Positions 10,393 through 29,195 of a DNA stretch of 64,000 bases are shown one piece after another; position 1 is the stretch's first letter; the number at the start of each line of letters is the position of its first letter. The position numbers and the translations under genes are program-made. Origin of the DNA: an uncultured Erythrobacter sp. (GTDB lineage: Bacteria > Pseudomonadota > Alphaproteobacteria > Sphingomonadales > Sphingomonadaceae); contig NZ_CANLMB010000001.1 in assembly GCF_947492365.1 (NCBI RefSeq), forward strand, positions 992,001-1,056,000. Direction: 5' to 3'. The notes under the pieces were generated by a model. The model worked only from the letters and a program-made list of their open reading frames with translations. It did no database searches and had not been told where the DNA came from.

Positions 10393-11504
10393 CCCGGATG
10401 CTCGCCCGGTACGAGCAGCTGATCGCGGCGGGCGAGCTACGCGCGGACCCCGATCAGCGCCGCGCTGCTGTTAGGCTCGACCGGCTGCAAAAGGAGCTGG
10501 AGGCACAGCGTCCCGGCGGATTGCTGGGTCAGTTCTTCGGCCGCAAACAGGATCGCTGCGAGGGCGTCTATATGTGGGGCGGCGTCGGACGCGGAAAGTC
10601 GATGCTGATGGACCTGTTCCACGAAACACTCTCGCTCACGGAGAAACGCCGCGTCCACTTCCACGCTTTCATGCAGGAAGTGCACGAGGAAATGCGCCTT
10701 GCCCGCCAGACCCATGAAGGCGATCCAATACCGCCGGTTGCACAGAAGCTGTCCGAGAATGTGCGCGTGCTCGCCTTTGACGAGATGGTGGTCAACAACT
10801 CGGCCGATGCGATGATCATGAGCAGGCTGTTCACCCACCTGATCCGCGAGCAGGACGTCGTGATCGTCACCACCTCGAACCGCCCGCCGAGCGACCTCTA
10901 CAAAGACGGCCTCAACCGCGAGCACTTCCTGCCCTTCATCGACCTGATCGAGCAGGAGCTGGACGTGCTCGGGTTGAACGGTCCGACTGACTACCGGCTC
11001 GACCGGATTGGCGATCTGGCGACATGGCACACGCCGCTGGGTGATGAGGCAACCGCCAAGGTGCGCGAGGCCTTCTTCCGCCTCACCGACTTCGCGCCCG
11101 AGGATGCTGCCAATGTTCCATCTGAGGAACTCGCAATCGGTCAGAAGCGCACCATCCATGTGCCAAAGTCACTCAAAGGCGTAGGCGTCTTCAGTTTCAA
11201 AAGGCTTTGTGCAGAGGCTCGCGGTGCGCCCGACTACCTCGCCATTGCGCGCGCCTTTCACACCGTGATCCTCGTCGGCATCCCGCTGATGGGGCCGGAA
11301 AAGCGCAACGAAGCGGCGCGCTTTGTGACACTGATCGACGCGCTTTACGAACACCGGGTCAAATTGTTCGCAACCGCAGAAACGCGGCCCGATGACCTCT
11401 ACAAAGCAGGTGACGGCAGCTTTGAATTCGAGCGTACGGCAAGCCGGCTCAATGAAATGCAAAGCGATGAATACATGGCCCTAGGCCACGGCGCGGAGCA
11501 CTAA
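10389..11504 (+). CDS. zapE: Cell division protein ZapE (AFG1-like ATPase)
   Basis: A 371-residue AAA+-like ATPase that interacts with the Z-ring in E. coli and is related to mitochondrial AFG1/LACE1. Walker A is GGVGRGKSML (about residue 59) and Walker B is VLAFDEM (about 128). The family-typical HFHAFMQEVH and TTSNRPPSDLYKDGLNR are present. The first start is a TTG whose bases overlap the thioesterase TGA (TTGA); an ATG three codons later is the alternative. zapE next to sdh genes is common in alphaproteobacteria. The gene ends 2 bases from the convergent crotonase gene. Confidence 0.92.
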   Translation: MTRMLARYEQLIAAGELRADPDQRRAAVRLDRLQKELEAQRPGGLLGQFFGRKQDRCEGVYMWGGVGRGKSMLMDLFHETLSLTEKRRVHFHAFMQEVHEEMRLARQTHEGDPIPPVAQKLSENVRVLAFDEMVVNNSADAMIMSRLFTHLIREQDVVIVTTSNRPPSDLYKDGLNREHFLPFIDLIEQELDVLGLNGPTDYRLDRIGDLATWHTPLGDEATAKVREAFFRLTDFAPEDAANVPSEELAIGQKRTIHVPKSLKGVGVFSFKRLCAEARGAPDYLAIARAFHTVILVGIPLMGPEKRNEAARFVTLIDALYEHRVKLFATAETRPDDLYKAGDGSFEFERTASRLNEMQSDEYMALGHGAEH

Positions 11505-11506
11505 GC

Positions 11507-12430
11507 TCAGGCAGCAGCAATACGCTCAGCCAGGCGGCCTTGTGCAGCGACGAGACGGCTCATCACCTTGAGGTCCTGCTCGCGCAATTGCAGCGCGGTG
11601 TCGGCCCACAGCTCGGTAATCCTGTTGAGCTCTTCAAGCTGCAGCTGCCACACGCGCTTGGTCGCACGGCGTGCCCCGACTAGACCTGCGTGACGGCGGT
11701 CGGACTTCTTGATGAAGTCGCGCACTGCATTCAGTCCATCGCCGGGCTCTGCAAGCGCGTGAACAATGCCCATGTCGTACATCTGTTCAGCGGTATAAGT
11801 CTCGTTTGAAACGATGATGCGGTCAGCCATCGCGCTACCAAGCTTACGCGTCAGCAAGGCATGCGCGCCCATGCCGGGATAAAGACCAAACATCACCTCG
11901 GGCAGGCCAAAGGTCGTTTGTCGCTCGGCAATGATATAGTCGAATGACAGCAATGCCTCGAACCCTCCGCCCAGCGCAGTGCCTTGCACCAGTCCGATCG
12001 TGAGCATCGGAATGTCGAGCGTCCGGATGTTCCGGTCGAGGATTGCGCAGCAACGGTGGCCATATTTGACCAACGCCTCGCGATTGCGTTCGCGGATCAG
12101 CTGCTGGAAAAGATCGAGGTCGCCGCCGAAGCAGAACACGTCCGGCGCACGGCTTCCCAGCACCAGATAGCGCAGCGGAACCTTTCCCGGACCAAAGCCG
12201 GCCTCGATCAGGTCCTGCCACTTTTCAAAGTCGTCTAGCATCGATGGAGTGAAGCTGGGGCGGCCTACAGGATTAATGTAAGTCCAGAGCGTTGCACTTG
12301 TATCTTCATAAAGAACATCAAGTTCTGACAGGCGGAACAATTCGTCTGGAATAGCCGAATGCAGCACGCTTTCAGCGAGCAATTCATCTTCACTTGTCAA
12401 TGGAACTGCCCGGCTGGCGCTGCTGTCCAT
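11507..12430 (-). CDS. RpfF-like crotonase (candidate DSF-type signal synthase)
   Basis: A 307-residue crotonase-superfamily protein. RpfF of Xanthomonas makes diffusible-signal-factor fatty acids from acyl-ACP. The oxyanion-hole segment is CFGGDLDLF (100-108). ALGGGFEALLS and LPEVMFGLYPGMGAH place two glutamates at 158 and 178, exactly 20 residues apart, like the catalytic pair of RpfF; ordinary enoyl-CoA hydratases lack the GLYPGMGA signature. The start is the ATG at 12430, with GGAG 9 bases upstream; a longer frame to 12544 is unsupported. It is the last gene on the minus strand after the XrtA operon, 224 bases below the amidotransferase. No rpfC/rpfG-like sensor or regulator is in the window. 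DSF synthesis is inferred. Confidence 0.78.
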   Translation of the reverse strand: MDSSASRAVPLTSEDELLAESVLHSAIPDELFRLSELDVLYEDTSATLWTYINPVGRPSFTPSMLDDFEKWQDLIEAGFGPGKVPLRYLVLGSRAPDVFCFGGDLDLFQQLIRERNREALVKYGHRCCAILDRNIRTLDIPMLTIGLVQGTALGGGFEALLSFDYIIAERQTTFGLPEVMFGLYPGMGAHALLTRKLGSAMADRIIVSNETYTAEQMYDMGIVHALAEPGDGLNAVRDFIKKSDRRHAGLVGARRATKRVWQLQLEELNRITELWADTALQLREQDLKVMSRLVAAQGRLAERIAAA

Positions 12431-12573
12431 CACCCAATACTCCGCTCTGACCCTGCGACCCTTGGCGCCTGAACGCCAATCTAATGAGCGACCTCTTGGC
12501 CTGCTACGTAACGAGTTGTAATCTACCGGTTGGAAAGGAAGCAAATGAATTATTGAAGGAATCAGGCGGCCAG

Positions 12574-12599
12574 AGTCTCAAAACGGGTCAATTGAGACT
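12574..12599. promoter_or_regulatory. 8-bp inverted repeat upstream of rpfF-like gene
   Basis: AGTCTCAA (12574-12581) and TTGAGACT (12592-12599) form a perfect 8-base-pair inverted repeat with a 10-base spacer. It sits between the amidotransferase stop and the rpfF-like start, 144 bases upstream of the latter. There is no T-run on either strand, so an operator or mRNA hairpin is likelier than a terminator. Confidence 0.4.
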
Positions 12600-12654
12600 G
12601 ATATTGCTGCGAATATTTGACAGTTGTGGATAATTCGCGGGCGGGTCCGCATCA

Positions 12655-14553
12655 TCAACCGCTAACCTCAAGTTGGGCGAGCGACTTTTCCAACATCAGC
12701 AACTGCCACAAGACGCGCGAATTGTCCGCTCGGCCCGAAATATGCGCCTCGGCAAGGTCCGAAATCGCGCGCGGAGCAAACCAACCCGACTGGGCAAGAA
12801 CCGAACTCGATCCAATCGCCCGAGCCTCTGCGCTGAGAGGCCCGCGCAACCATTCGGCAATTGGGGTCACAAACCCCTGTTTGGGCCGGTAGAGGATGTC
12901 GCGCGGCAAATAGCGCTCCATGCACTTCTTGAGCAGATATTTGCCGGTGCTCCCCTGCACTCGCAATTTGTCGGGCAGACGCGCGGCAAATTCGACCAGA
13001 CGATGGTCAAGCAGCGGTTCGCGCGCCTCGAGGCTCACCGCCATGCTGGTGCGGTCTACCTTGGTAAGGATGTCTCCGGGAAGCCAGAAAGTGAGGTCCG
13101 CATATTGTGCGCGGTCGAGCCCGCTTTGCGCAGGCGCTGCCCGCATAAGAGCGATTAACTCATCCTCCCCCCGGAACCCGCCAAGTCCATCGGCAAAGCC
13201 GCTGGAATAAAGCGCGGCGCGCGCTTCAGGCGTTGTCACGGAAAGACCGCGCGCATAGCCCTCTTCTCCGCTTTCGGCGAGCGCCAGCAAGGTCGCCTTG
13301 GCGCGTAAGGGGCGCGGTGCCCAATCCGCCTTGGGCCAAAAGCGCCCGAGCGTCCCGAACAGCGAGCCGCGCAGGCCCGATGGCAAAAGCGAGCGAACGC
13401 GCTCTTCATTGTGGTGAAACACCTGCCTGCGGTAGCCCGCAAAAGCCTCATCCGCTCCATCGCCGGATAAAGCCACCGTCACCTTTTCGCGGGCAAGCTG
13501 GCACACGCGCCATGTCGGCAATGCGGAGGCATCTGCAAAGGGCTCGTCAAACATGCCAGCAAGCTGATCGAGCGCGCCAAAATCCTCTTGCCCGACAATG
13601 CGGCTGTCATGGGCTGTGCCAAACTGCTCGGCGATCTGCTTTGCGTAGCTGGTTTCATCCAGACCTTCGACGTCAAAGCCAATCGAGCAAGTGCGCACCG
13701 GCTCCGCGCTGGCCTCGCTCATCAAAGCGACGACGCTGGAGGAATCGACTCCGCCAGATAGAAATGCACCCAACGGGACGTCGGAAACCATGCGCGATTG
13801 CACCGCTTCGCGCATCAGGTGGACAAGTTCTGCCGAAAGGTCCGCCTCGCTTCCCTTTGCGCGTTCGGCAAAGCTGATGTCGTACCAGCGGCGCTGTTGC
13901 GGCACCGGCTTGCCCTGTTCGAGCAGAAGGAAATGGCCCGCTGCGAGCTTTTGGACGCCAGACAGGATCGCATGGCTATCCGGCACATAACCCCAGGTGA
14001 GATAGGCATCGAGCGCCTGCGGATCGACCCTGCGGCGTATTAGCGGGTGCGCAAGCAGTCCTTTCAACTCGCTCGCAAAGGCTAAGCTGCCGTCGGAAAG
14101 CCTCGCCAGATGCAACGGCTTCACCCCGAAACGATCGCGTGCCAGCAGCAATTGCCGCGTGTCGAGATCGTAGAGCGCGATGACAAACATTCCGTGGAGC
14201 TTGTCCAGGCAATCAACGCCCCAGCGCTGCCACGCGGCGAGGATCACCTCAGTATCGCCTGACGTTCGGAATTTGGCGCCATCGCGCTCAAGCTCGCGGC
14301 GCAATTCGCGGAAATTGTAGATCTCGCCGTTAAAAGCGATCACCGCACGGCCGTCAGCTGAAAGCATAGGCTGGGGGGAGCCTTCGACGTCGATGACAGA
14401 GAGGCGCCGGTGCCCCAGCCCTACGCCGTGTTCGGTCCAGACACCTGCGCCATCCGGCCCGCGATGCGCCATTGCGGTGCACATCCGCTCGACCCGAGCA
14501 GGATCGACGGGCTTGGGCGTTTCCGCATGAAAGAGACCAGCAATTCCGCACAT
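12655..14553 (-). CDS. AsnB-like amidotransferase 1, exosortase A system-associated
   Basis: A 632-residue homologue of glutamine-dependent asparagine synthetase. Cys2 (MCGIAGLFH) is the nucleophile of the N-terminal glutaminase domain, and SGGVDSSSV (about residue 264) is the ATP-pyrophosphatase loop of the synthetase domain. The length matches the TIGR03108 amidotransferase found in XrtA loci, which is thought to amidate an exopolysaccharide component rather than make asparagine. Its start lies 9 bases after the xrtA stop, so it is cotranscribed with xrtA. Seen: both active-site motifs intact. The acceptor is unknown. Confidence 0.9.
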   Translation of the reverse strand: MCGIAGLFHAETPKPVDPARVERMCTAMAHRGPDGAGVWTEHGVGLGHRRLSVIDVEGSPQPMLSADGRAVIAFNGEIYNFRELRRELERDGAKFRTSGDTEVILAAWQRWGVDCLDKLHGMFVIALYDLDTRQLLLARDRFGVKPLHLARLSDGSLAFASELKGLLAHPLIRRRVDPQALDAYLTWGYVPDSHAILSGVQKLAAGHFLLLEQGKPVPQQRRWYDISFAERAKGSEADLSAELVHLMREAVQSRMVSDVPLGAFLSGGVDSSSVVALMSEASAEPVRTCSIGFDVEGLDETSYAKQIAEQFGTAHDSRIVGQEDFGALDQLAGMFDEPFADASALPTWRVCQLAREKVTVALSGDGADEAFAGYRRQVFHHNEERVRSLLPSGLRGSLFGTLGRFWPKADWAPRPLRAKATLLALAESGEEGYARGLSVTTPEARAALYSSGFADGLGGFRGEDELIALMRAAPAQSGLDRAQYADLTFWLPGDILTKVDRTSMAVSLEAREPLLDHRLVEFAARLPDKLRVQGSTGKYLLKKCMERYLPRDILYRPKQGFVTPIAEWLRGPLSAEARAIGSSSVLAQSGWFAPRAISDLAEAHISGRADNSRVLWQLLMLEKSLAQLEVSG

Positions 14554-14562
14554 GATCGGCGG

Positions 14563-15594
14563 TTAGCCCAAGGCTGCAGTAGCGACAATCCTCGCAGCGA
14601 TGGCCGCGGTGATGGAGAGCGCTGCAAAACCGGCAATCGCGACAATCGGGCTGACGGATTGGCGAGCGGCGAGTTTTGTCAGGGCCAAGCCCTCGACTTC
14701 GTCAGAGCTCCAGCCAAACTCCTCCGGCTCGCGCTCGAAGAACCGCCACGCCGCGGCAAGGACCAATGCGACCACAATCGCAAAGAATATCCAGCCATAG
14801 AAGATGTGATCGAAACCCGCGGCGAATTCTAGGCCCTGGCTCTGCGCGATATAGATCGTGCCCCACGCGCGAACGCCGTTGGCAATGATCGGGACGATGA
14901 TGGAGAGCGCCATGAAACAGGCGCGCCTGCTCCAGCTTTCGAAGCGGGTGAAACAGACCAGAACAGCGAGCGTAATCATTGCGACAAGGAACTTCACGCC
15001 CGAACAGGCCTCAGCCACAATGAACAGGCCAACCGGTGTGTCGATATAGATCCCGTCGACCACGGCAGGAATGCCGCTCCACAGAGTCAAAGCGACCGCA
15101 ATATCGGCGGTTATAGCCTGCAACTGCGGAATGATCTCATCGCCCATCGGCACGAGGAACACGCCGAACGCAATGGGCAGTGCCAACACAAGGCTCGCGC
15201 GGAGGCCCAGCGCAGTCACAACCACGCCCTGCAGAGCGCCCACCGCCCCTGCATGAGCGATAAGGTTTATGTCGCTCGCCCGCCCCGCGACCCATAGCGC
15301 CAGCCCAGCGGCAACCAGCGCGAGCCCCGGAAGCCACGCGCGCGGAGTGATCTTGGCCAATTCACCGATCTTCATGCTGACCAGCCATCCGATGATGAGC
15401 GGAACCAGCAGGATATGGGTGTAGGTGTCGATGTCCCACCATTGGTGGAACATCTCGCCCCATTCGCGCGCCGCAATCGCCATCACAGCAACGGCGCCGA
15501 TCACAAGCGTCGCCAGCGTCATGCGCCAAGCTTCGGGCAACAGGGCAGCGAGGCTCTGCGAGGGTGAATTCTGGCTCGTGGAATCAAGCGACAT
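14563..15594 (-). CDS. xrtA: Exosortase A
   Basis: A 343-residue polytopic inner-membrane cysteine protease/transpeptidase that recognises PEP-CTERM tails. The conserved triad is visible: Cys197 in EACSGVKF, Arg242 in NGVRAW, and His263 in FDHIFYGW. Several hydrophobic segments cover residues 25-285, with one more at 315-338. The start is the ATG at 15594, overlapping the end of the glycosyltransferase gene by 11 bases; an upstream extension is in the wrong context. Many XrtA proteins carry a C-terminal EpsI domain of about 200 residues. Here the chain ends after a final membrane segment, so that domain is absent. The next gene starts 9 bases later. No PEP-CTERM substrate was recognised in the window. 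Confidence 0.93.
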   Translation of the reverse strand: MSLDSTSQNSPSQSLAALLPEAWRMTLATLVIGAVAVMAIAAREWGEMFHQWWDIDTYTHILLVPLIIGWLVSMKIGELAKITPRAWLPGLALVAAGLALWVAGRASDINLIAHAGAVGALQGVVVTALGLRASLVLALPIAFGVFLVPMGDEIIPQLQAITADIAVALTLWSGIPAVVDGIYIDTPVGLFIVAEACSGVKFLVAMITLAVLVCFTRFESWSRRACFMALSIIVPIIANGVRAWGTIYIAQSQGLEFAAGFDHIFYGWIFFAIVVALVLAAAWRFFEREPEEFGWSSDEVEGLALTKLAARQSVSPIVAIAGFAALSITAAIAARIVATAALG

Positions 15595-24963: not shown

Positions 24964-26196
24964 CTAAACAAGCAGCTCAGTAGCTGCCCCGTGCCCCAGA
25001 AACGCCGACGGGGATGCGGTGGCGCCATAGGCACCCGCGCAGAACACCGCGACGATATCGCCAACATCGGCAGCTGGTAGCAGAGCCGCATCAGCAAGCC
25101 GGTCTAACGGCGTGCAAAGGCAGCCCACAACGTTAACCACATCCTGTGCTTCGCCTGAGTAGTTGGACGCGATCGCGACTGGATAATTACGCCTGACGAC
25201 GGTTCCGAAATTGCCCGATGCAGCGAGCTGGTGGTGAAGGCCCCCATCAGTGACGAGATATGTGGTGCCATGGCTCACCTTCTTGTCGATCACGCGGCAA
25301 AGATAGACCCCTGCCTCACCAACCAGATACCGGCCGAGTTCTACGCATAATTGCGTATCATCGAAGCTGTCCGGGAGATTATCGACCATGCGCTCAAGCG
25401 CACTGCCCACGGCGCCCAAATCCAACGGCTCGTCGCCCGGAAAATAGGGAATGCCAAAACCGCCTCCCATATTGAGCTTGGGCAGCGGCTCTCCAATATC
25501 GCCGGACAGTTTCTCAGCCAGTTTCAGCACGTTGCTCTGCGTTTCCGAGATGGCTTCGGCACTCAGAGCCTGGCTACCTGTGAAGATATGAAGGCCGCGC
25601 CAATCAGCTCCTTCATTGATGATCGAGCGCGCCAATGCGGGCACACGTTCGGCGTCGACGCCAAAAGGTTTTGCACCTCCGCCCATCTTCATCCCCGAGC
25701 CTTTAAGCTCGAAATCAGGGTTAACCCGTATCGCAATGCGCGGCGTCTTACCGATCCGCTGTCCAATATGGAGCGAGCGCGCCGCTTCTCCTTCGGATTC
25801 GCAGTTGAGCGTGACGCCCGCAGAAATCGCGGCTTCCAATTCTTCATCGCGCTTACCCGGCCCCGCAAAACTCACCCGAGTCGGATCAATTCTTTGCGCT
25901 TGCACCATCGCCAGTTCGCCCGAGGAGGCGATGTCAAACCCGTCCACCAGCGGCTCCATATGCGCGATCACATCAGGGTGCGGGTTGGCTTTGACCGCGT
26001 AATTGATCCCGACACGCTTAGGCAGAGCGGCGCGCAATTCGGCCATGCGTCGATCCAGATGCGTACGCGAATAGACGAACAGCGGCGTGCTTCGAGCAGA
26101 TGCGACCAGATCGCTTGCGGTCCGCCCCCCAATCGCTAGCTCACCGTCGAGCGCATCGTAACCTGCGGGAATGGGGCCAAGTGCCTTGGTCTTCAT
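24964..26196 (-). CDS. PLP-dependent decarboxylase, exosortase A system-associated
   Basis: A 410-residue fold-III PLP enzyme related to diaminopimelate and ornithine decarboxylases. The PLP lysine sits in YAVKANPHPDV (about residue 66). GGGFGIPYFPGDEP near 244 and CVELGRYLVGEAG near 286 are family motifs, and VVGCLCTPLDRLAD near 357 carries the active-site Cys/Asp. It matches TIGR03099. Its start overlaps the acyl ligase stop (ATGA), so the pair is translationally coupled. It probably supplies a decarboxylated amino compound; the substrate is unknown. Confidence 0.9.
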   Translation of the reverse strand: MKTKALGPIPAGYDALDGELAIGGRTASDLVASARSTPLFVYSRTHLDRRMAELRAALPKRVGINYAVKANPHPDVIAHMEPLVDGFDIASSGELAMVQAQRIDPTRVSFAGPGKRDEELEAAISAGVTLNCESEGEAARSLHIGQRIGKTPRIAIRVNPDFELKGSGMKMGGGAKPFGVDAERVPALARSIINEGADWRGLHIFTGSQALSAEAISETQSNVLKLAEKLSGDIGEPLPKLNMGGGFGIPYFPGDEPLDLGAVGSALERMVDNLPDSFDDTQLCVELGRYLVGEAGVYLCRVIDKKVSHGTTYLVTDGGLHHQLAASGNFGTVVRRNYPVAIASNYSGEAQDVVNVVGCLCTPLDRLADAALLPAADVGDIVAVFCAGAYGATASPSAFLGHGAATELLV

Positions 26197-27740
26197 TCTG
26201 AACCCTCCCCTGTCAGCTCGCGATAAAGCGCCGTGCGATCGATCTTGCCATTGGGGTTGAGCGGCAACTTCTCGCGCCAGTGGATCATCTGTGGCTGCAT
26301 GAAATTGGGCAGCTCCTTCAGCAAAACCTTGGGCAATTGCGCCTGCTCATTACCGTCCATAGTCCCGCGTACCACCAGATGCACTGCATGGCCGAGCCGT
26401 TCGTCGGGAATGCCAAGCGCAACAGCTTCGGCCACCATGTCGGTTGCGATGGCCGCTTCCTCGATTTCCTGCGGACTAATGCGATTGCCCGCGCTCTTTA
26501 TCATCGCATCGCGGCGGCCGACGAAATAGAGCAAGCCATTCTCTGCACGTTTCACTCGGTCGCCCGACCAGACAGCAACACCTGCGTAGGTCGATTGCGA
26601 AGGTGCCTGCTTGAAACGCTCAGCCGTCCGCTCTGGATCTTGCCAATATCCTTGCGCAACCAGAGGGCCGCAATGGACTAGCTCGCCTTCTTCGTCTGGC
26701 GCAGCGACTTCGCCCTCATCATTGATGACCAAAATCTCCGCAAAGGGAATTGCGGTGCCCATCGAGGTTGGGTGCTCGTCTACCAGCGAGGGATCGAGAT
26801 AGGTCGAGCGGAACGCTTCGGTGAGACCATACATCGGGTATAGGTCTGCCTCAGTAAAGGTCCGCTGCAAATCGCTCACGAGGTCGGTAGTCAGAGCGCC
26901 TCCGCTGTTGGTCAGGCGGCGGAGCGGACCGCTGGCTTCGGCGGGCCAGTCTAGCTCGGTCAATTGCACCCATAGCGGCGGGACTGCAGCCAATGTCGTC
27001 ACCGAATGCTTAGCGCAAGCCTTGGCCACATCGCGCGGAAACAGGAAATCCAGCGGGACAACCGAGCCGCCCGCATACCACGTTGAAAGCAGCTGGTTCT
27101 GACCGTAGTCGAACGACAATGGCAGCACCGCAAGCGTCACATCATCGCTCGCCAGTTTGACGTAATGCGCCACGCTCACTGCGCCGAGCCACAGATTGGC
27201 ATGGCTCAACATCACGCCCTTTGGTCTGCCGGTTGATCCGCTCGTGTAGAGAATGGCGGTCAGATCATCAGGGGCGGCGCTGGAGGGGCCATGCGGGATC
27301 TCAGCTGAATATGCCGCGCTTAGCGCGTCCTTCTCGCTCCAGATCGCGCAATCGCCACGGACATCGCCTTCTTCCAGCGTCTTGAGCCGTGAGGGCGTTC
27401 CGATCAGCATCACCGCCCCGCTATCGGCCAGAATATGCGCAACCTGCGCGCGTTTGAGCAGCGGATTGATCGGCACATGGACGAGTCCCGCTCGCGCCGC
27501 AGCCAATGGCATCAGGCAAGTGAGCTCGCCCTTGGCCGCCCATGTCGCAACCCTTGAGCCCTTTGCAGACACTTCGCTCGCGAGCCAACCGGCGAGCCAA
27601 TCGACACAGCTCTTTAACCCATCGTGGTTAAGCACGCGGTCACGAAGCACCAGCGCCGGTGCCTCGCCATACCCCCGCGCACTCGCCAATTCGGCGAGAT
27701 GGTCAAGCGGGTAAGGCGTCAGATCGGGGCTATCGGGCAT
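26193..27740 (-). CDS. Acyl-CoA ligase (AMP-forming), exosortase A system-associated
   Basis: A 515-residue ANL-superfamily adenylating enzyme. The P-loop is YTSGSTGRPKGVMLSH (about residue 167), the adenine-binding segment is YPMYGLTEAFRS (about 300), the hinge region is FVGRRDAMIKSAGNRISP (about 405), and the catalytic Lys lies in NPNGKIDR near the C-terminus. It matches TIGR03098. It is coupled to the PLP decarboxylase and divergent from a GNAT-ACP-hydrolase operon 28 bases away. An ACP gene nearby suggests it loads a carrier protein rather than only CoA; that is inference. Confidence 0.9.
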   Translation of the reverse strand: MPDSPDLTPYPLDHLAELASARGYGEAPALVLRDRVLNHDGLKSCVDWLAGWLASEVSAKGSRVATWAAKGELTCLMPLAAARAGLVHVPINPLLKRAQVAHILADSGAVMLIGTPSRLKTLEEGDVRGDCAIWSEKDALSAAYSAEIPHGPSSAAPDDLTAILYTSGSTGRPKGVMLSHANLWLGAVSVAHYVKLASDDVTLAVLPLSFDYGQNQLLSTWYAGGSVVPLDFLFPRDVAKACAKHSVTTLAAVPPLWVQLTELDWPAEASGPLRRLTNSGGALTTDLVSDLQRTFTEADLYPMYGLTEAFRSTYLDPSLVDEHPTSMGTAIPFAEILVINDEGEVAAPDEEGELVHCGPLVAQGYWQDPERTAERFKQAPSQSTYAGVAVWSGDRVKRAENGLLYFVGRRDAMIKSAGNRISPQEIEEAAIATDMVAEAVALGIPDERLGHAVHLVVRGTMDGNEQAQLPKVLLKELPNFMQPQMIHWREKLPLNPNGKIDRTALYRELTGEGSE

Positions 27741-27768
27741 CAGGTTCCTGAAAGGGTTTTGGGGTCAA

Positions 27769-28788
27769 GTGATCGAAGCGCGGTATCATGACAGGGTTAA
27801 CGTCTTGCAAGACCTCTTTGCAAAGGGCGCGCCTGCGGTATCCCCGTTTGATCGGGCCGAATGGTATGCGCTGCTTGCCGAAACAGGTCTGACGCCGCTG
27901 ATTGCGATCGCTAGCGATGCGGATCACAGCGCCGCACTTGCACTGATTGAAGATGCAGCTCGCATCACTCCGTTGCGCAATTGGTATAGCTTTACATGGC
28001 GCCAGTTGGCTCCAGCAGGAAAGCAAGGCGACCGGTTATTGATCGAGATAGCACGGCAGCTCAAATCCCGCGGGCACCGCGTCACGCTCGAACCCGTGCC
28101 CGACGAAGACGGATCGGCCACCCGGCTCGCGCAGGCTTTTGCGCAGGCGGGTTGGAGGGTTGAAGTCACCAGCTGCGATGTCAATCATGTCCTCCATCTC
28201 AGCGGCAAGAGCTTCGCCGAGTATTGGGCCGAACGCCCTGGCCCTTTGCGCACGACCTTCAAACGCAAGGCCAAACATGTCGAGTGCAAGGTTCTAACCC
28301 ACTTCGATGAAGCGTTGTGGGACGACTATGAGGCGATTTACGCCGACAGCTGGAAGCCCGAAGAAGACCACCCTGCCATGCTGCGCCAGTTCGCACGCGA
28401 AGAAGGTGCAGCGGGACGGTTGCGGTTTGGCATGGCGTGGCACGATGGCAAGCCGGTCGCGGCGCAATGCTGGACCGTAGAAGCAGGAACCGCCTTCATT
28501 CACAAACTCGCCTATCTCGAAAGCGCAAAGAAGCTGTCCGCCGGAACCACTCTTTCGGCTGCTTTATTCGCACATGTCATAGACACCGACCGCGTGAATG
28601 AAGTCGACTTCGGCACCGGCGATCAAAGCTATAAGAGCGACTGGATGAACGCGGTGCGCCCGCGTTACCGGATCGATTGTCTGAACCTTGCTGCACCCAA
28701 AGCTTGGATCGATCTTGCACGCCTGACACTTGGCCGATTGCGGTCTGATGATGTCCCCGAACTTGCGCCGCTCCCCCCGCGACGGTAA
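27769..28788 (+). CDS. GNAT/FemAB-like transferase in the XrtA locus
   Basis: A 339-residue protein with a C-terminal GNAT-fold (CelD/FemAB-like) domain. RTTFKRKAKHVECKV near 165, WKPEEDHPAMLRQF near 200, GKPVAAQCWTVEAG near 228, and FGTGDQSYKSDWM near 285 parallel the RKARAEVRKGLKN and FGRSKTGSGPYNFKKNW segments of the FemAB protein encoded at 16821-17882. The start is a GTG at 27769 with AAAGGG upstream. It begins the plus-strand arm of the cluster ahead of the acyl carrier protein gene. A transfer from acyl-ACP is plausible but unproven. Confidence 0.78.
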   Translation: MIEARYHDRVNVLQDLFAKGAPAVSPFDRAEWYALLAETGLTPLIAIASDADHSAALALIEDAARITPLRNWYSFTWRQLAPAGKQGDRLLIEIARQLKSRGHRVTLEPVPDEDGSATRLAQAFAQAGWRVEVTSCDVNHVLHLSGKSFAEYWAERPGPLRTTFKRKAKHVECKVLTHFDEALWDDYEAIYADSWKPEEDHPAMLRQFAREEGAAGRLRFGMAWHDGKPVAAQCWTVEAGTAFIHKLAYLESAKKLSAGTTLSAALFAHVIDTDRVNEVDFGTGDQSYKSDWMNAVRPRYRIDCLNLAAPKAWIDLARLTLGRLRSDDVPELAPLPPRR

Positions 28789-28838
28789 GGGCGCCGGTCT
28801 AACCGGATCGCAACAGCGCTGCACGAAGAGCGGCGGAC

Positions 28839-29195
28839 ATGAAGGATCGAAGTGAGATGAGCACCAACCCAGCCACTGGTGACCTGTCTGAAAGCACTGA
28901 AGCTCGCGAAGAAGCTTCGGGCTTGCCGATGAGCCGCATGGCGCTCGATAGAGAGCTCAAATCGATCATCAGCGATGTGCTCGGCATTGACGAGGAGCAG
29001 GCGGGCGAGTTGACCGATGAGAGCGGTTTGTTCGGCCATCTGCCTGAACTCGATTCGATGGCCGTCGCTGGCTTGCTCACCGAAATGGAAGACCGGCTCG
29101 ACATCGTGATCGAAGATGACGATGTCGATGGCGAGATGCTCGAAACCTATGGCGGCTTGCTCGCCTTTGCAGAAGGCAAGCTGGCCGAGGGCTGA
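28839..29195 (+). CDS. Acyl carrier protein, exosortase A system-associated
   Basis: A 118-residue carrier protein. The C-terminal 85 residues form an ACP-like domain, with the phosphopantetheine serine in PELDSMAVAGLL (about residue 73). Acidic surface helices fit the family. The N-terminal 30 residues are Ser/Glu-rich and not part of the fold; ATGs at 28857 or 28929 could be the true start. It sits between the GNAT-like gene and two hydrolase-like genes, so it probably carries the group activated by the divergent acyl ligase. Confidence 0.88.
   Translation: MKDRSEMSTNPATGDLSESTEAREEASGLPMSRMALDRELKSIISDVLGIDEEQAGELTDESGLFGHLPELDSMAVAGLLTEMEDRLDIVIEDDDVDGEMLETYGGLLAFAEGKLAEG

Follow-up and report, generated by a model that had tools for sequence, protein, structure and literature searches.

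Two core systems are known for signalling by fatty acids of the diffusible signal factor (DSF) family, RpfF-RpfC-RpfG of Xanthomonas and RpfF-RpfR of Burkholderia and Cronobacter, and in both the gene next to rpfF encodes the receptor. Passages of PMC6361424 describe RpfF as dehydrating a 3-hydroxyacyl-acyl carrier protein (ACP) to the cis-2 form and then releasing the product from ACP, in the synthesis of Burkholderia DSF (BDSF). RpfC joins its sensor to kinase, REC and Hpt domains, and in RpfR the GGDEF and EAL domains are preceded by FI and PAS domains; in the DSF-term passages of a census of cyclic di-GMP (c-di-GMP) sensing (PMC8846402), RpfR is the sole protein named for DSF-type signals. 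Judged by title and abstract opening, no open-licence paper listed for RpfF together with exosortases, Sphingomonadales, Erythrobacter, Sphingomonas or Novosphingobium, or for DSF together with PEP-CTERM or Sphingobium, looked relevant. Here we describe an rpfF-type gene in a 64,000-nucleotide stretch of an uncultured Erythrobacter sp. genome (the window; contig NZ_CANLMB010000001.1, positions 992,001 to 1,056,000), where it stands at the downstream end of an exosortase A (XrtA) exopolysaccharide (EPS) locus. It is rather probable that its product, P0001, makes a DSF-family signal, and that this signal is most likely read by P0121, a GGDEF-EAL protein encoded elsewhere in the genome, with a resulting change in c-di-GMP. 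As an RpfF, P0001 is itself ordinary and its setting unusual; the new part is the class of receptor, a candidate that we infer from genomic association.

The gene (11507..12430, minus strand) is an intact open reading frame with its ATG at 12430 and no internal stops, encoding 307 amino acids. A preliminary description of the sequence had called the product a crotonase with RpfF-type glutamates and a GLYPGMGA signature, and Glu158 and Glu178 (the predicted catalytic residues) and the signature are all located as numbered there. Both glutamates are retained in all 47 RpfF members extracted from the order Sphingomonadales (49 in all). As evidence for RpfF these motifs carry less weight than had been given them: ECH_L002, an ordinary hydratase encoded in the same genome, also has both glutamates and PGMGG, so that the glutamates plus PGMG(G/A) are necessary and not diagnostic. 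The assignment itself was nevertheless upheld. P0001 scores 353 bits against NF006452 (curated cut-off, 177), is 40% identical to RpfF of Xanthomonas campestris pv. campestris (Xcc) over 247 aligned positions, as against 16-20% to six crotonases of its own genome, and both its sequence and the tree put it nearer RpfFs of solved structure than other crotonases; in the tree it does not fall among ordinary enoyl-CoA hydratases. In the predicted structure the RpfF fold covers the chain, with structure matches from Foldseek to which a VIA-align table gave a second look; the best non-RpfF match in the Protein Data Bank (PDB) is DspI. By score, tree and predicted structure, P0001 is of the RpfF type and not an ordinary enoyl-CoA hydratase, and it is most improbable that the protein serves fatty-acid breakdown, as its Pfam ECH_1 match (82 bits) and the occurrence of the catalytic motifs in hydratases could have suggested. 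P0001 is not assigned to NF053515, the DSF synthase RpfF equivalog, where its 204 bits fall below the curated cut-off of 550; because the 6dgn BDSF synthase fragment (186) and a partial Xcc RpfF (526) fall below it too, that model is narrower than the activity. A PHROGs search with P0001 gave no match.

The preliminary description reported no cognate receptor in the window, and none is there. In the whole genome nothing matches the RpfC-type sensor profile, and there is one candidate, P0121 (G000:C1:1241795-1243828, plus strand, 677 amino acids), encoded about 237 kb from rpfF. P0121 is a full-length relative of the GGDEF-EAL proteins that adjoin rpfF in other genomes. In a sample of 247 genomes of Sphingomonadales, 49 have rpfF; the sensor domain of P0121 is found in 43 of these and in 12 of the 198 that lack rpfF, 55 in all (naive Fisher p 1.6e-30, kinship ignored). 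The RpfC-type sensor is found in 12 genomes, namely the other six with rpfF, none of the 43 with rpfF and the P0121-type sensor, and six of the 198 without rpfF, at lower scores. With 43 genomes of the P0121 type, six of the RpfC type and none of both, each of the 49 therefore has exactly one type of sensor. All 29 genomes in which rpfF is linked to XrtA, and four that have lost xrtA and the amidotransferase gene asnB at the site, belong to the P0121 group. Within the genus of the window, the receptor is present in 10 of 10 genomes with rpfF versus 1 of 10 without, and seven named strains, among them Erythrobacter sp. NAP1 and Altererythrobacter epoxidivorans, are common to the rpfF and P0121 matches among the 120 proteins listed for each.

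Where rpfF is not linked to XrtA, in the genomes that were fetched, it mostly adjoins either a gene for a GGDEF-EAL protein whose N-terminus is hydrophobic or one for an RpfC-like hybrid kinase, and some of the kinase loci add a REC-PAS-GGDEF-EAL protein (domains from Pfam on three examples, with Hpt in the kinase scoring below the cut-off). A scan of named genomes, covering the best 80 of 563 rpfF relatives with flanks of up to 10 kb, gave a P0121-type neighbour in 42 loci (37 convergent, 5 divergent), an RpfC-type kinase neighbour in 13 and a position within an xrtA/asnB locus in 20; four had only the ATPase flank described below, three of them on contigs ending near rpfF, and one, on a short contig, had none of these. 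No locus among the 80 combines two of the three settings; the proportions are not a census, because the first row of the query came from a receptor-linked genome. The P0121-type neighbours belong to Sphingobium, Sphingomonas, Parasphingopyxis, Chelatococcus, Pseudolabrys and others, and the RpfC-type kinases to Roseomonas, Pseudovibrio, Microvirga and a metagenome-assembled genome of Burkholderiales. In a sparser sample of the alphaproteobacterial class, rpfF is present in 21 of 289 genomes, and the earlier view that DSF signalling is described mainly in Xanthomonadales and Burkholderiales is too narrow for the distribution of RpfF-type genes. Fifteen of 18 rpfF loci outside the order (flanks up to 1.5 kb) adjoin a frame matching the RpfC-like kinase profile, mostly in its kinase part, the sensor lying beyond the fetched stretch.

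Two features of the kinase-linked loci may be recorded here. A GGDEF-EAL protein is present in 11 of the 13 RpfC-type loci among the best 80 (L132, L142, L152, L155, L158, L162 and L164-L168), and the one scanned, from such a locus in G231, reads REC-PAS-GGDEF-EAL, unlike the HD-GYP protein RpfG. Beside an RpfC-like kinase in G016 (L086:8353-10386), RpfF and a C-terminal Haem_oxygenas_2 domain (PF14518, 70 bits) share one open frame; in G007 (L087) an RpfF fusion with a tail resembling that of G016, where the PF14518 scan was made, also lies beside an RpfC-like kinase, and such a fusion is a possible candidate for a signal-modifying oxidase.

The build of P0121 departs from that of both described receptors. 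Pfam finds GGDEF and EAL domains, nothing N-terminal of them and no kinase domain. In the predicted model (pLDDT 85.6, pTM 0.53) helices at residues 63-84, 87-109, 119-147, 151-171, 176-197 and 200-249 precede GGDEF-EAL, and, judging from the sequence letters, the N-terminal helices are taken to be six predicted membrane spans followed by a helical linker. Motifs of sensors of this type are LYxxPxSLxxGA, YExGA and RNAGR. Neither Pfam (E 1) nor NCBIfam (E 0.1) has a match to the sensor, and there is none among PDB sequences at E 1; the Foldseek matches listed for the whole model are GGDEF-EAL structures. That the sensor is a distant version of the RpfC sensor was considered and rejected, since the two profiles show no similarity (hhalign probability 0.1-0.2%); the RpfC-type profile itself gave two chance-level matches among PDB sequences. 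Xanthomonas and the window's genome share the RpfF family, and RpfC-type kinases adjoin rpfF in other alphaproteobacteria, but P0121 lacks the sensor, kinase, REC and Hpt build of RpfC. Like RpfR, P0121 has a sensor followed by GGDEF and EAL domains, and the rpfF/P0121-type pairs of relatives are mostly convergent, as are rpfF and rpfR in passages of PMC6361424 and PMC4504480. P0121 differs at the N-terminus, which is helical, of membrane type and without a PAS match where RpfR has FI and PAS domains; Pfam returned only GGDEF and EAL, no FI model having been searched as such.

The XrtA-linked RpfFs and the four from genomes that have lost xrtA form a single clade (100/97), whose sister is the RpfF of G207; the rpfF gene of G207 adjoins a receptor gene whose product is 55% identical to P0121 (459 residues of the called part), and the groups neighbouring the clade in the tree are also receptor-linked. 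The simplest history is an ancestral pair of neighbours, rpfF and receptor gene, that was later separated. Distances among RpfFs and among receptors correlate at 0.91-0.93 (14-21 genomes), and the partial correlations, conditioned on six control genes one at a time, are 0.705-0.914. The arginine of RNAGR (Arg171 of P0121) is invariant in 34 receptors from genomes with rpfF and altered in three of six from genomes without it, two of these three also reading AGDEF for GGDEF. Those arginine-less receptors, in G107 (L229), G069 (L231) and G042 (L232), may be decaying or changed in their input. GGDEF and DDFGTG strings occur in all 34 receptors of rpfF genomes, and the EAL pattern was missed in two (G161, G199). 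What we read as mdh follows the receptor gene in 18 of the 20 genomes compared, a set that includes two without rpfF; sucD and sucA, likewise named by our own reading, mostly come further on.

Several observations weigh against P0121 as the reader of the signal. Unlike rpfR in the described system, its gene is unlinked from rpfF in the window's genome, and 12 genomes of the order have the sensor but no rpfF. In the class sample the P0121 sensor occurs in six of 289 genomes, three with and three without rpfF, and one of the six, G257, combines an rpfF that adjoins an RpfC-like kinase with a P0121-type sensor on a frame matching the kinase profile (L192), so that the rule of one sensor or the other holds for the order and not for the class. 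The genus pattern amounts to about two losses of rpfF (nine-gene tree including 4 of the 10 genomes without rpfF), one jointly with the receptor (G121, G197, G235) and one without (G083); with genomes related and losses few, the independent events behind the co-occurrence are modest in number. As for L192 itself, the P0121-type sensor may be portable between outputs. Nine EAL proteins are encoded in the window's genome, all scanned for domains but L044 and L045, and two were checked as receptors in 20 congeners (10 with rpfF, 10 without). L040 (PAS-GGDEF-EAL) was set aside, since it shows no skew (8 of 10 with rpfF, 9 of 10 without). L041, the stronger rival, with PAS, GGDEF and EAL domains, is nearer to RpfR in build, and its N-terminus scores at least 100 bits in 7 of 10 congeners with rpfF versus 1 of 10 without, a skew like that of P0121 and a further point against the latter, albeit one that depends on the score: a looser cut-off gives 8 of 10 versus 10 of 10. 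That a DSF-type signal is made and read by another protein such as L041, with P0121 accompanying rpfF for some other reason, is unlikely, as G181 and G211 keep rpfF with no L041-type match, and P0121-type proteins regularly adjoin rpfF, which was not seen for any L041-type protein. P0121 could instead work with RpfF without sensing its product, either by restraining RpfF, as passages of PMC4504480 and PMC6361424 report that RpfC and RpfR each do by binding it, or by sensing another lipid or a membrane state, which would suit the twelve genomes with the sensor and no rpfF. The place of the receptor gene beside rpfF in both known core systems and the distribution complementary to RpfC-type sensors, which suggests the same role, make this very improbable.

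A further alternative is that rpfF serves the XrtA/EPS system, by making or releasing an acyl chain for the polysaccharide or for protein anchoring. Its position beside asnB and xrtA is conserved in relatives, a synteny whose absence would have counted against the preliminary description: in 29 of the 49 rpfF genomes rpfF follows xrtA on that gene's strand, 3.1-8.8 kb downstream (3.1-3.9 kb in 23, 8.7-8.8 kb in six), a recurrence beyond chance. In the remainder it is on the same contig but distant (6), on a separate contig (9) or without a listed xrtA position (5). Yet the functional tie to the exosortase system drawn from this placement is not supported. XrtA, counted at E 1e-30, is present in 195 of the 247 genomes (167 of them exceeding the curated cut-off), of which 45 have rpfF and 150 do not, and rpfF is present in 4 of the 52 genomes without XrtA. 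In G161, G181, G211 and G027, the last XrtA-positive by a weak match only, rpfF stays between the same flanks with xrtA and asnB gone from the site, where one other gene of the XrtA block is kept in G161 and two in G027; the congeners G083, G121, G197 and G235 have the same locus minus rpfF. Across the 247 genomes rpfF thus does not come and go with XrtA, and it is not part of the system: it stands at the downstream end of the XrtA/PEP-CTERM EPS locus in many genera, but is neither needed by the locus nor lost with it. The ACP-like and acyl-CoA ligase genes of the same locus would suit a service to XrtA; however, the ligase also occurs in genomes lacking both rpfF and xrtA, and relatives of rpfF elsewhere adjoin signalling genes, which leaves this alternative very unlikely. 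A ligase/decarboxylase/ACP cassette feeding RpfF was rejected, the ligase (TIGR03098) being found in 175 of 247 genomes, including the congeners G135, G220 and G233, which have neither rpfF nor an XrtA match. The decarboxylase, acyl-CoA ligase and ACP-like genes (24964-29195 in the window) look like a separable module, because they are kept in congeners without an XrtA match; the ligase is retained in G135, G220, G233, G181 and G211.

At the locus itself, asnB, the XrtA-system amidotransferase gene (12655..14553; TIGR03108, 928 bits, cut-off 817), and xrtA (14563..15594; TIGR03109, 299 bits, cut-off 208) are conserved neighbours upstream of rpfF on the minus strand, as are further XrtA/EPS genes upstream. 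On the other side an AFG1-like ATPase gene, here zapE (10398..11504, plus strand), is convergent with rpfF, 2 nt away, and is a conserved flank of the locus. The preliminary description had rpfF appended to the exosortase operon; the shared strand and the conserved place after the amidotransferase gene were confirmed, although a separate transcript is suggested by the 224-nt gap 5' of rpfF (12431..12654), which probably holds a promoter of its own, as predicted from TTGCT at 12544-12540 and TAGATT at 12525-12520 on the minus strand. Relatives have TTGCC and TAGATT-like boxes at the same place: the gap measures 150-428 nt across the 13 loci having asnB upstream, and TTGCC is found in 11 of the 13, where mononucleotide shuffles give it in 2.3 on average; the window itself reads TTGCT. 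We regard rpfF as adjoining the EPS operon, under a predicted promoter of its own, and not as an XrtA component. In G106, G128, G194 and G196 (L059-L062), rpfF is separated from the amidotransferase gene by four genes that we read as an HlyD-ABC transporter set.

If P0001 and P0121 form a signal-receptor pair, P0001 would act as an acyl-ACP dehydratase and thioesterase, the reaction of its family, to make a cis-2-unsaturated fatty acid; the free acid would leave the cell and accumulate, and P0121 would sense it in or at the membrane and alter the synthesis or the breakdown of c-di-GMP. PilZ proteins, with 11 matches in the window's genome (10 above the cut-off), are possible effectors of that change, and the placement of rpfF, taken by itself, weakly suggests the neighbouring polysaccharide as a target. 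The two genes would once have been adjacent, rpfF moving beside the XrtA/EPS locus in an Erythrobacter-type lineage, and would have continued to occur in the same genomes although no longer close on the chromosome. On balance it is likely that P0121 and its relatives make up a third core receptor class for DSF signals, in which a membrane-embedded helical sensor would read a lipid-soluble signal in the bilayer and feed c-di-GMP enzymes directly, replacing RpfC in Sphingomonadales and some Hyphomicrobiales. For the sampled order this gives a simple rule, that rpfF is accompanied by a sensor of either the RpfC or the P0121 type, as in 49 of 49 rpfF genomes. If true, DSF-type quorum sensing would reach many alphaproteobacteria of the sea, of soil and of leaves, a receptor build absent from the DSF-term passages of the census PMC8846402 would be added, and a widespread type of membrane GGDEF-EAL protein would gain a named input.
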